The notes beneath the pieces are model-generated. The model saw only the letters and a list, made by a program, of their open reading frames with translations. It made no database searches and was not told the DNA's origin. 61,787 bases of DNA, taken from contig JBFMBH010000007.1 in assembly GCA_040755095.1 (NCBI GenBank), positions 1 to 61,787 of the forward strand, in the 5' to 3' direction. Origin of the DNA: Thermodesulfobacteriota bacterium (GTDB taxonomy: Bacteria > Desulfobacterota > Desulfobulbia > Desulfobulbales > JBFMBH01). The translations under genes were made by a program, and so were the position numbers. Positions 8,167 to 36,828 of the stretch are shown one piece after another (position 1 is the stretch's first letter; each line of letters opens with the position of its first letter).

Positions 8167-8457
8167 TTACTTCTCCACGATGGCCAGCACGTCGTCCTCC
8201 CGGAGGATGAGGTACTCCTCGCCCTCCAGCTTGACCTCGGTGCCGCCGTACTTGCCGAACAGGATGATATCCCCTTCCTTGACGTCCAGGGTCATCCGCT
8301 CACCCTTGTCGTTCAGCTTGCCCTTGCCAACCGCCACCACCTTGCCCTCCACCGGCTTCTCTTTGGCGGTGTCCGGGATGATGATGCCACCCTTCGTCTT
8401 CTGCTCCTCCTCCACACGCTTGACCAGGATGCGGTCATTCAACGGCCGAATCTTCAT
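8167..8457 (-). CDS. groES: Co-chaperonin GroES (10 kDa)
   Basis: Heptameric lid of the GroEL cage; the 96-residue length is typical. Conserved features include the N-terminal [18 protein letters not shown], the mobile-loop region [15 protein letters not shown] and the core [26 protein letters not shown]. The start at 8457 is preceded by GTAGGAGGAGGTTTGCACA, a strong ribosome binding site. It is the first gene of the groES-groEL operon and has a long leader (see the promoter and hairpin entries). Confidence 0.98.
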
Positions 8458-8656: not shown

Positions 8657-9100
8657 TCAAGGGCGGGCGCGAAGCCGGTCCAGGACCAGACCAAAAAAGC
8701 GAAGGCCGCGGCCCTGGAACAGCCAGCCCAGATGGGCGTGGCAGCGGCAGCACAGGACGTAGCTCCAGGCGCAGCCGGGGAACCAGGTATGCTCCAGGGT
8801 GGGCAGGCCGGCCGCGCTGGCCCCAGGCGCCGCGTCAAAACAGCCGATGGTGAAGGCAAAGCCCGCCGGGTTGAAGAAGGTGTGGACATGACCACCGGCA
8901 ACAGCGATCGCAGCCTCGGGCGTGGTGACTGGCTGGCCGCAGGCCGCGCACAGCAGCTGCGGTCCTTCGCCAGGGTGCGGGCGGCCCGGGCGGGCTTCCT
9001 CATGCTGCACCGGGACGATCTCGCTGGCCGGGCGCAACAGGTGCCAGGGCAGGACATGGTCTTCCGGGCCGATCCGGGCCGATGGTGACCAAGAAAACAT
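8657..9100 (-). CDS. Cereblon-like CULT-domain protein
   Basis: Small 147-residue protein whose C-terminal part (about residues 48-145) carries every hallmark of the CULT domain, the thalidomide-binding domain of eukaryotic cereblon that also occurs as stand-alone bacterial proteins. The zinc ligands are Cys51/Cys54 (LCAACG) and Cys117/Cys120 (CCRC). The aromatic cage appears as His104, Trp106 (EHTWFPG), Trp112 (AW) and Trp126/Phe128 (HLGWLF). An NPAGF motif is at residues 77-81. Some 45 N-terminal residues precede the domain. No catalytic partner such as a Lon N-domain is fused. The start ATG at 9100 lacks a strong ribosome binding site and lies 13 bases after the read-through stop of arsS, so the two are probably co-transcribed. 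The natural ligand is unknown; uridine-like and cyclic-imide compounds bind known members. Confidence 0.82.
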
Positions 9101-9137
9101 GGCTTTGGCCAACCTAGGCCGCGATGGAGCCGCCTCA
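9101..9137 (-). promoter_or_regulatory. Candidate selenocysteine insertion signal (UGA plus bacterial SECIS-like hairpin)
   Basis: The in-frame UGA at 9135-9137 is followed on the minus strand by 18 bases and then a hairpin. GGCC (9117-9120) pairs with GGCC (9107-9110) around the loop UAGGUU, and an outer GGCU/AGCC pairing (9128-9131 with 9101-9104) extends it. The UGA-to-loop distance fits bacterial SECIS elements. The loop has GG but not within its first two bases, so the match is imperfect. Confidence 0.5.
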
Positions 9138-10118
9138 GGTGAAGCCGGCACCCGCGGTGCAGGCGTAGCAGTGGTCACCCACCGCGATGGGCCGTCCTGC
9201 CAATGGCAGGGTCGCCAAGTCCTGGACCCGGAGGCGACCGGCCTCCCAGGTAAGCCCTGCCGCCAGGTTGAAATCGCAGTCCGCCAGTTGGCCATGCCAG
9301 CCCACGGAAACGAGCGTCCGGCACATGAGGCCGTCCAGGGTGCAGGGATTGAAGCACGCCGCCAACCGGCCCTGGTAGCGCTCCAGGTTGCCTGAGGACT
9401 TGAGCCAGGAGCGGAAGCGGCCCAGGGGCGCGTTGGCGAAGGTGAAGAGCCGGTTGAAGCGGATCCCCCAGCGGCTGGCCAGGACCCGCCGGAACTGGCG
9501 TTGGGCCTGCTCCTGGCCGGGCGGCAGGAAGGCACCGGCGGGATTGACCACCAGGTTAAGGGTCAGGCCGGTGTCCTCCTGGCCGTAGCCCAGCCGGTTA
9601 AGGGCCGCCAGCGCCGCCAGACTGCGCTCCCAGACCCCGCGGCCGCGCAGGCTCGCGGTCTGGCCGGGATCGGTGGAGGGGAAGGAGGCCACCAGCGCCA
9701 CCTGCAGGCGCCGCAGGAGATCCAGCAGCGGCCGGCCGCCGGGCTCGGTGATGAGGGTAAGGTTGGTGCGGAAGAGCAACTGCCGGCCGGGTTGCACCAG
9801 GCCGGCCACCAGTTCCTCGATCCCGGGCACCAGCTCCGGGGCGCCGCCGGTGATGTCGCAGACGTCTACCCGGGCGGTGGCGGCATAGGCCATGACCGCA
9901 GCCATGGTCTCGCCGTCCATGATCTCCGGGCGATCCGGGCCGGCCTCCAGATGGCAGTGGCGGCAGGTCTGGTTGCACAGCCGGCCGACGTTGATCTGCA
10001 GGGTGGTGATCCCCGTGCGCCGCAGCTCCAGGCCCTGGCCCTCCAGGCGCCGGGCAAAAGGCAGCCAGCTGGCCCGCTCCGGGGCGCCCTCCTCCTGGGC
10101 GGCGGACTGGAGGCTCAC
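9114..10118 (-). CDS. arsS: Arsenosugar biosynthesis radical SAM protein ArsS, predicted selenoprotein
   Basis: Radical SAM enzyme of the ArsS family, which builds the arsenosugar precursor from a methylated arsenical and the SAM-derived deoxyadenosyl group. The [4Fe-4S] motif CNQTCRHC sits at about residues 48-55 after LQINVGRL. A C-terminal Cys-rich region follows (CFNPCTLDGLMC, then CDFN, then CYACTAGAGFT). In family members the segment after GAG usually ends with a Cys before GG. Here that codon is UGA at 9135-9137, and reading continues in frame through GGSIAA to a TAG at 9114. Selenocysteine forms of this family are known, so the UGA is read as Sec (about 334 residues). A conventional caller would stop at 9135. 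The start GTG at 10118 lies 13 bases after the AhpD-like gene; an upstream in-frame start would overlap that gene heavily. No arsM lies beside it. Confidence 0.82.
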
Positions 10119-10131
10119 GGGCAGCGGCTGA

Positions 10132-10464
10132 TCACAAGGAGATGTCCCGGGCCCGGCGGCGCATCTGCACGCCGTGCACCAGGGAGGCGCCGCCCCGGAT
10201 GGCAGCTGCCACATGCACCGCCTCGGTCATTTCGGCCAGGGTGCCCCCCTTCTCCAGGCAGCCAGTCGTGTAGGCATCGATGCAGTACGGGCATTGCAGG
10301 GCGTGGGCCACGGCCAGGGCGATGAGTGCCTTCTCCCGCTCGCTCAGCGCCCCCTCGGCGAATACCGACTGGTAGTACGCGAAAAACTTTTCGGCCAGCT
10401 CTGGCGCCTCATTGCCGATCTCGGCGAAGCAGGCCAGATCTTGGCACTGGTAGTAGTCGGACAC
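10132..10464 (-). CDS. Arsenosugar-associated AhpD/carboxymuconolactone decarboxylase-like protein
   Basis: A 110-residue member of the AhpD-like peroxidase family that accompanies ArsS in many genomes. The core is EGALSEREKALIALAVAHAL followed by the redox motif CPYC (in QCPYCIDAYTTGC), then EAVHVAAAIRGGASLVHG. The CxxC cysteines should be the active pair; here they are ordinary Cys, not UGA. The start is GTG at 10464, fixed by GGAGGAG five bases upstream; an earlier in-frame ATG would place that ribosome binding site inside the gene. It is the first gene of the arsenosugar cluster and is followed directly by arsS. Its exact chemistry is not established. Confidence 0.85.
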   Translation of the reverse strand: MSDYYQCQDLACFAEIGNEAPELAEKFFAYYQSVFAEGALSEREKALIALAVAHALQCPYCIDAYTTGCLEKGGTLAEMTEAVHVAAAIRGGASLVHGVQMRRRARDISL

Positions 10465-10533
10465 AGCTCTCCTCCGCATTTCTTGACGAGCCGCTCCTGC
10501 CGCCACCGTCCGGCGACCGGCGCGGCATCCTGG

Positions 10534-34391: not shown

Positions 34392-34779
34392 TGAGCCGTC
34401 GATCCGGGACCTGCTGCAGCGCCTCCTGGCAGACGCCGGTCATGCAGTCAGGACCGCAGCCGACGGCGAGGAGGCGTTGACCTTCTTCCAGCAGGAGCCG
34501 GCGGATCTGGTCATCGTCGACCTGATTATGCCCCGCAAGGATGGCCTCAACACCATCGTCGACATCCTGGAGGCGTCGCCCAACACCGGGGTGATCGCCA
34601 TCTCCGGGGGCGGCCAGGCTATCGGCGCCGGCCGCTACCTGCGCCTGGCCCAGGAGCTGGGGGCCGTGCATGTGCTCTCGAAGCCCCTGGACATGCTGGA
34701 GCTGTTCGGGGCCATCGATGCCACCCTGGCCCGGCGGTCATCGGGGAAAGGCCTCGGGGATCCCGGCGTCCACGGGTAG
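34366..34779 (+). CDS. Single-domain response regulator
   Basis: A 137-residue CheY-like receiver. ILVVDDEPSIRDLLQRLL carries the acidic pair, the phospho-Asp lies in VIVDLIMPRKDG, and the conserved Lys is in HVLSKPLDM. It overlaps the end of the diguanylate cyclase gene by 26 bases, and AGGAGGGAGGAGG lies just upstream of its start, inside that gene. Its last 14 codons overlap the end of the convergent aldolase/dehydrogenase gene by 42 bases. No output domain is present, so it acts by interaction or in a phosphorelay with the hybrid kinase. Confidence 0.9.
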   Translation: MAKILVVDDEPSIRDLLQRLLADAGHAVRTAADGEEALTFFQQEPADLVIVDLIMPRKDGLNTIVDILEASPNTGVIAISGGGQAIGAGRYLRLAQELGAVHVLSKPLDMLELFGAIDATLARRSSGKGLGDPGVHG

Positions 34780-36828
34780 GGAGGCCCCCGTGGTCGGGGT
34801 CAGATCCGAGGCAAAGAAGACCACGGCGTTGCCCACATGCTCTGCCGTCACCTCGGTCTTGAGCAGGCTCCGGCTGCGGTAGAACTCCCGCAGTCCCGCC
34901 GGATCCAGATTCCGGGCCCGCATCCGCTCCGGGCCCACCGTTTCCCAGAGTCCGGAGGCCACCGCCCCGCCGGCGAACACCGCGTCCGGATTCACCATAT
35001 TCACCCGCACCCCCAGCGCCGCCAGCTCCAGGGCAGCGATCCGTCCCAGCTGGTGCGCACCGGCCTTGGAGGCGCTGTAGGCGCCGAAGGCCGCCCCTGG
35101 CGCCAAGACATTCTTGGAGCTGATGATCACCACGTGGCCGCCGGTGCCCTGCCGCCGGAAGACAGGGATGCTCGCCTTCATGACCAGGAACACGCCCACC
35201 AGGTTGACGGCCAGGAGCCGGGACAGATCCGCCAGCTCCAGCTCGGCCAGCGGGGCGACATGGGCTACCCCGGCGTTGGGCACCAGGATGTCCAGCCCGC
35301 CGGCAGCGGCCACCACTGCCGACAGCCCCCTGGCCACCGAAGCCGGATCGGTGACGTCCATGACCAGGGTGGCCACCCGCTCCGCCGGGAAGCGCTGCGT
35401 CAGCTCGCCTTGCACCACGGCCAGGCGGCCGGCGTCCAGGTCAGCCAGGAACAGCTGGGCGCCGGCGGCCAGGAGCTGCCGGCCGACGCCACAGGCCACC
35501 GCCCCACCGCCACCGGTCACCAGGGCCACCTTGCCGGCCAGGGGCAAAGGCTGGGTCCGGCCGAGCTTGGCCTGCTCCAGGCTCCAGTACTCCATCCCGA
35601 AGATGGTCGCCTCGTCCAGGTCCTGGTAGATGCCGACGGCCGCGGCCGCGGTCTTGGTCACCAGGGTGCGCTCGGCAATGTCTGCCACCACGCCGGCCTC
35701 CCGGAGGCTCGCGCCCGCCGCCGCCAGTCCCAGTCCTGGCACCAGGATCACCCGGGGGCTGGTGTCCAGCTTGACGAAGGTCCGACCGCGCGCCTGCGCC
35801 TGGGCGGCGAAGTAGTCGTCATAGCGCTGCCGGAAGGCCGCCACCGCGCCCCCCACCGCGGCCATCGTCCCGGCCTCGTCCTCCCGGCCTGAAAGCTCCA
35901 GGAACAACGGCCGATTCTTGGTGCGGATGACATGGTCCGGGGTCACAACGCCGGTGGTGAGCAGGGAAAACGCCTGGGGATGCGCCAGGGCGGCCTTCAC
36001 CTCTGGCCCATGCCGCCAGGCCAGAAGCCAGGTTTGCCGGCGACCGCCGGCCGCCGGATTCGCCAGCGCCCCCCGCAGGATGGGCAGCACGAGATCAGGA
36101 TCCAGGGCGGACGCGCCGGGGATGAGGGCGGGGGCCGGCCGGCGGCGGGCGGCGATGAAGGCCTCGGCCCGGCTGACCACCTGGATCATCCGCTCGTACG
36201 CCTCGCGGGCGGTGCCGCCAAAGGTGAACAGGCCATGGTGGGCCAGGACCAGGGCCTCCATCCCGGGGCGGGCCGCGTACAGCTCCGCCACCGCCTTGGC
36301 CAAGGGAAATCCCGGCATGATGAAGGGCAGGATGCCCACCTCCGGACCCAGGGCCTCGGACACCAGCTCCGCGGCATGGGGCTGGTTGGTGAGAACCAGG
36401 ATGGCGTCGGCGTGGGTGTGATCCACAAAGGCATGGGGCAAAAAGGCATGCACCAGGGTCTCGATGGAAGGGGTGGGGGCCTTGGCATCGAGAAGATGGG
36501 TGCGGAAGGCGTTGACCATGGCCTCGTCGTCCAGCCGGTCCAGGGCCCGCAGGCGCCGCAGATACGCCAGGTCCACCGCGGCGAAGCCCTGGGGCTCAAT
36601 CGAGGCCAGATCCCAGCCGCTGCCCTTGACCCAGATCACCTCCTGCTCCTCTCCCAACAGGCTTGTGACCCGACCTTTGACCGAGGTGTTGCCGCCGCCG
36701 TGCAGGACCAGGCCCGGCTCGGCGCCCAGCAGCCGCGAGGTGTAGACCCGCAAAGCCAGCTCGGGCGGCTCGGCGGCATACTGGCTCGCGAGCTGGGCTG
36801 CCACGGCCTCGTCGTATCGGTTGTCCAT
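34738..36828 (-). CDS. Bifunctional aldolase / short-chain dehydrogenase (rhamnulose-1-phosphate aldolase-lactaldehyde dehydrogenase-like)
   Basis: A 696-residue fusion. The N-terminal class II aldolase/adducin-type domain (about 20-400) contains LHGGGNTSVKG, HAFVDHTHADAIL and LVLAHHGLFTFG, whose histidines would bind the catalytic metal. The C-terminal short-chain dehydrogenase (about 430-696) has VALVTGGGGAVACGVGRQL (nucleotide binding) and the YSASKAGAHQ catalytic Tyr/Lys. It ends in the canonical LPVDAGIPEAFPR. Relatives handle rhamnulose-1-phosphate and lactaldehyde, but no rhamnose genes are nearby, so the substrate is uncertain. Convergent overlap with the receiver gene is 42 bases. 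GGGGAG precedes the ATG. Confidence 0.92.
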   Translation of the reverse strand: MDNRYDEAVAAQLASQYAAEPPELALRVYTSRLLGAEPGLVLHGGGNTSVKGRVTSLLGEEQEVIWVKGSGWDLASIEPQGFAAVDLAYLRRLRALDRLDDEAMVNAFRTHLLDAKAPTPSIETLVHAFLPHAFVDHTHADAILVLTNQPHAAELVSEALGPEVGILPFIMPGFPLAKAVAELYAARPGMEALVLAHHGLFTFGGTAREAYERMIQVVSRAEAFIAARRRPAPALIPGASALDPDLVLPILRGALANPAAGGRRQTWLLAWRHGPEVKAALAHPQAFSLLTTGVVTPDHVIRTKNRPLFLELSGREDEAGTMAAVGGAVAAFRQRYDDYFAAQAQARGRTFVKLDTSPRVILVPGLGLAAAGASLREAGVVADIAERTLVTKTAAAAVGIYQDLDEATIFGMEYWSLEQAKLGRTQPLPLAGKVALVTGGGGAVACGVGRQLLAAGAQLFLADLDAGRLAVVQGELTQRFPAERVATLVMDVTDPASVARGLSAVVAAAGGLDILVPNAGVAHVAPLAELELADLSRLLAVNLVGVFLVMKASIPVFRRQGTGGHVVIISSKNVLAPGAAFGAYSASKAGAHQLGRIAALELAALGVRVNMVNPDAVFAGGAVASGLWETVGPERMRARNLDPAGLREFYRSRSLLKTEVTAEHVGNAVVFFASDLTPTTGASLPVDAGIPEAFPR

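Follow-up and report, generated by a model that had tools for sequence, protein, structure and literature searches.

A stand-alone cereblon-like CULT-domain protein encoded next to arsS in a Thermodesulfobacteriota bacterium

Among described bacterial proteins, the closest to the one reported here is MsCI4 (cereblon isoform 4, MGR_0879, of Magnetospirillum gryphiswaldense; PDB 4V2Y, 5AMH), which is likewise a stand-alone CULT protein. MsCI4 binds thalidomide, uracil and uridine (PMC4287342), and a third of it folds upon ligand binding (PMC4449219). The thalidomide-binding domain of human cereblon is alike in fold and cage, and eukaryotic cereblon binds C-terminal cyclic imides (PMC13001092). 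We analysed a stretch of 61,787 nucleotides from a Thermodesulfobacteriota bacterium (the window), in which the following features define a further protein of this kind:

9100..8657, minus strand: CULT-domain protein of 147 aa (ATG 9100-9098, stop TGA 8659-8657)
8663..8965, minus strand: CULT/beta-tent domain, about residues 46-146, delimited by PDB match, alignment and model
9032..9046, minus strand: N-terminal motif W19-H20-L21-L22-R23, shared with the tails of bacterial CULT proteins

The initial annotation had the coordinates 8657-9100 right and left the strand unstated; translation of the plus strand of 8657..9100 gives an unrelated sequence. A PDB search with the minus-strand product returned the MsCI4 structures 4v32 (E 2e-22) and 4v2y (4e-22), a match far beyond chance, as well as human cereblon (E about 5e-10). 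Identity to MsCI4 is 37-40% over the domain. The AlphaFold2 model of the protein has pLDDT values of 92-98 over residues 51-147 and low confidence over the first 40 residues. An overlay on bacterial cereblon isoform 4 had been proposed as a check; against the thalidomide-bound MsCI4 crystal structure the model scores Z 19.8 with 1.1 Å over 101 residues (Z 19.6-19.8 for the fold common to the two proteins), and against human cereblon Z 17.9 with 1.5 Å and 30% identity. The predicted beta-tent fold is supported by these comparisons.

The protein is made up of the CULT domain alone, residues 46-146 behind a low-confidence tail, which is longer than that of MsCI4 (the domain starts near residue 46, versus 19 in MsCI4). 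The family search found no second domain, and, unlike human cereblon, the 147-aa protein lacks the LON domain and the DDB1-binding region that mark the E3 ligase receptor. It is thus a new member of the bacterial stand-alone CULT family, a family already known (Lupas 2015), and the identification as a stand-alone cereblon-like domain was correct. The profile search suggested alongside it would have missed the protein: Pfam PF03226 (Yippee-Mis18), which describes a related beta-tent zinc fold, gives just a weak 22-residue match of 17 bits against a gathering cut-off of 26.6. MsrB (methionine-R-sulfoxide reductase), a distant beta-tent relative, is matched at 12.4 bits over 19 residues only, far below its cut-off of 179.

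All residues previously assigned to the zinc site and the cage (C51, C54, C117, C120, H104, W106, W112, W126 and F128) are present at those numbers. The two CxxC pairs, C51/C54 and C117/C120, constitute a predicted zinc site and are invariant among 61 aligned sequences, so that the claim of conserved zinc ligands stands. W106, W112 and W126 are invariant in the same alignment, and these zinc and tryptophan residues are among its 13 invariant columns. The cage aligns with that of MsCI4 as W106/W79, W112/W85, W126/W99 and F128/Y101; the three tryptophans and an aromatic fourth wall (F128) characteristic of the CULT family are therefore in place. Only the inclusion of His104 among the conserved cage residues has to be withdrawn: this position is Phe in about 90% or more of relatives and in MsCI4 (Phe77). 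The protein further differs from MsCI4 in having Phe128 for Tyr101 and Cys110 for Tyr83, the latter paired with human Tyr384 (PMC4449219), and shares with it the zinc cysteines, the three cage tryptophans and the NPxG motif (here N77-P78-A79-G80). The cage residues fall in the best-predicted part of the model, and the comparison with crystal structures is one of folds, not of side chains. In a poorly resolved CULT tree the protein sits on a long branch, given which it may have lost ligand binding or changed its ligand; it may have come by transfer or by vertical descent. The MsCI4 system used for drug soaking may gain a useful natural relative in the His104/Cys110 variant.

The N-terminal tail carries a recurrent motif. 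In 68 of 99 CULT proteins, an Arg or Lys directly behind a pair of hydrophobic residues stands 24-34 positions ahead of the first zinc Cys, compared with a mean of 9.7 and a maximum of 18 in shuffled tails; after reduction to 60% identity the motif is retained in 40 of 65. It stands 27-33 residues ahead of the first zinc Cys in most relatives, most commonly at 28, which is also the distance from R23 to C51 in the present protein. The presence of W-H-L-L-R at this preferred distance speaks for a start codon that lies ahead of residue 19. We know of no earlier report of an N-terminal motif in bacterial CULT proteins, and it may resemble protease-docking peptides. Judging by its conservation, it is probably a contact site for a partner, and the tail that carries it, modelled with low confidence, is probably a disordered linker. 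The motif could be used to fish for the partner of the CULT protein.

Put together, these features suggest how the protein may work. The two CxxC pairs would hold a zinc ion and so pin the beta-tent fold, while the three tryptophans and Phe128 would form an aromatic cage. Homology suggests that the ligand in this cage is a flat ring, one edge of which resembles an imide. By analogy with the described proteins, candidates are uracil and uridine as well as cyclic imides, for instance one arising at a damaged protein C-terminus. Capture of the ligand would be coupled to folding and followed by signalling or delivery through a partner, for which the hydrophobic-Arg motif on its flexible linker is the probable contact. 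In this genome only, the gene would come last on an arsS transcript. We consider it likely that the protein is a CULT protein of the MsCI4 type, which recognizes a ligand without catalysis, carries a probable partner motif, and owes its genomic position to rearrangement and not to a role in arsenic metabolism.

The same features can be read as those of an adaptor, a ubiquitin-free parallel to cereblon: damaged proteins ending in a cyclic imide would be captured by the cage, and the motif would dock a protease or another partner. The cage and zinc site do match cereblon, cereblon recognizes C-terminal cyclic imides (PMC13001092), and the N-terminal motif is conserved on a tail that is modelled with low confidence and is probably a disordered linker; yet no protease gene recurs among the neighbours of CULT genes, no partner of such an adaptor is known, and roughly one CULT protein in three lacks the motif or has it in a form that was not recognised. 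We regard this reading as unlikely, and hold the broader proposal to be equally doubtful, namely that the bacterial stand-alone CULT family consists of adaptors that read imides, whose cage takes imide-bearing proteins or metabolites and whose N-terminal motif tethers them to a cellular machine, as a ubiquitin-free counterpart of cereblon.

Bacterial CULT proteins had been described as few in the initial annotation, which does not agree with our survey. Among order relatives, CULT is present in 35 of 96 genomes, representing 25 of 45 genera; phylum-wide it is found in 39 of 395 genomes (35 of 246 genera). A patterned scan of public genomes, built on a closer six-row CULT alignment, yielded 116 confirmed loci, including ones from Nitrospirota, Myxococcota, Rhodospirillaceae and Magnetococcales (organisms taken from record titles).

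The recurrent neighbour of CULT is cobA-hemD, an assignment verified with the copy in the present genome. It immediately precedes CULT in 47 loci (among L041-L131), in 45 of which the two overlap or are separated by a gap within 35 bases; start codons were chosen by rule, which makes the lengths of hemD-CULT overlaps approximate. Within the order, all 14 CULT genomes of families f11 and f12 have this arrangement, against 0 of the 21 from elsewhere. In both families hemC-cobA/hemD ends with CULT, which mostly overlaps hemD. In the present genome, hemC and cobA-hemD are found on a different contig, with no CULT behind them. An apparent cobA-hemD-CULT fusion (L084/L017, G082:C158), in which HemD and CULT share one open frame, was discarded: the end of HemD is read out of frame there, most likely because of a frameshift close to it. 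A limited literature search found no report linking cereblon or CULT to uroporphyrinogen genes in bacteria.

A role in tetrapyrrole synthesis, such as an action on HemD or the binding of maleimide-type products of tetrapyrrole oxidation, would account for the 47 mostly overlapping gene pairs and for the complete association in the two families. The link does not, however, extend beyond those families. In Nitrospirota, Pseudomonadota, other Desulfobacterota families and the present genome, CULT genes stand without cobA-hemD, and shared descent may hold the operon together without shared function. Common ancestry could by itself explain a synteny confined to two families. We therefore take this synteny as a weak hint at function, and think such a role quite improbable.

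The surroundings of CULT in the present genome are different, and consist of the following features:

9114..10118, minus strand: arsS (TIGR04167, 362.6 bits against a cut-off of 300)
9107..9120, minus strand: SECIS-like hairpin GGCC-UAGGUU-GGCC, its first base the 18th counted from the U of UGA
10132..10506, minus strand: arsenosugar-biosynthesis-associated AhpD/CMD-like protein (TIGR04169, 182 bits against a cut-off of 120)
8167..8457, minus strand: groES-like ORF, identified by reading and not by family search

The likely start of arsS is GTG 10118, just past the stop of the preceding gene, with the frame open from ATG 10214. The gene contains an in-frame TGA at 9137-9135, corresponding to Sec360 of the longest reading, in the motif CTAGAGFT-U-GG; nearly all ArsS matches of relatives that exceed the cut-off have an in-frame TGA as well, and tRNA-Sec and SelB are present in this genome. 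The distance of 13 bases between arsS and CULT given previously is right with selenocysteine read-through (arsS stop 9116-9114, CULT ATG 9100-9098) and becomes 34 bases if counted from the in-frame TGA. A standard gene call would cut ArsS off at this TGA.

The putative SECIS element is a 4-bp GC stem with the loop UAGGUU. This stem is not significant by itself, since 41% of shuffles do equally well, and it does not appear when the arsS-CULT junction alone is folded to minimum energy. Examined sequence by sequence, 17 of 17 relatives have a hairpin starting at the 16th to 20th base counted from UGA, which lends support to an assignment that is weak on its own. The MAFFT-aligned SECIS columns show no covariation because the length of the loop varies. 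The hairpin overlaps the arsS stop and the translation start region of CULT, ending 6 bases before the CULT ATG, and no clear Shine-Dalgarno sequence is seen between the two. This layout makes coupled translation of arsS and CULT plausible.

The groES-like ORF lies 199 bases downstream of CULT. It was rejected as a candidate operon partner because of a ribosome-binding site of its own and because it does not recur in the neighbour clusters. Elsewhere on the contig, ARAGORN reports a 98-base tRNA-Pro at 35328-35425 on the minus strand, inside an aldolase/short-chain dehydrogenase ORF (34738-36828); this call is probably false.

The placement of CULT behind arsS had been offered as a genomic clue to function, with a survey of the neighbours of bacterial CULT genes as a means of following it up. 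The survey argues against it. A tblastn search with ArsS over about 115 CULT loci gave a match in the present genome only. Conversely, CULT is absent within 1.5 kb of all 20 arsS loci fetched from relatives, 16 of which have the AhpD-like gene; the conserved pair is ArsS with the AhpD-like gene, without CULT. Nor do the two genes co-occur: CULT is present in 6 of 23 genomes with ArsS and in 27 of 70 others (odds ratio 0.56, p = 0.32). CULT is thus neither kept next to arsS across genomes nor associated with it in occurrence, as a component of an arsenosugar operon would be. No ArsM scores over the curated cut-off in this genome, the best reaching 102.9 of 263 bits, and arsenosugar synthesis itself is therefore putative. 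That sub-cut-off ArsM-like methyltransferase (L189, G000:C85) is followed on the same strand by an ORF with a heavy-metal-associated-like domain, and the two might form an arsenic or metal gene set.

That CULT is an accessory of the ArsS pathway, which binds, shuttles or senses an arsenic-containing nucleoside or sugar, is very improbable: the two genes share a strand and probably a transcript, with CULT 13 bases past the stop of a selenocysteine-containing arsS and its start just past the SECIS-like hairpin, as coupled translation would have it, but against this stand the adjacency at a single CULT locus and at none of the relatives' ArsS loci (1.5-kb flanks), the lack of co-occurrence, the absence of an ArsM over cut-off, and a nucleobase screen on MsCI4 in which uracil and uridine were reported bound and adenine was not (PMC4287342). 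A position that is a one-off with arsS, and in two related families is the tail of hemC-cobA/hemD, points to local gene rearrangement and not to an arsenic role. We infer that the link between arsS and CULT is incidental, though a lineage-specific functional link would look alike in one genome.

The survey thus warns against taking the arsS neighbour as a clue to the function of CULT. The arsS-CULT locus does not reveal the natural ligand of the bacterial CULT domain; the survey provides better handles on it in the form of a large set of CULT genes, two families whose cobA-hemD operon ends with CULT, and the conserved N-terminal motif.
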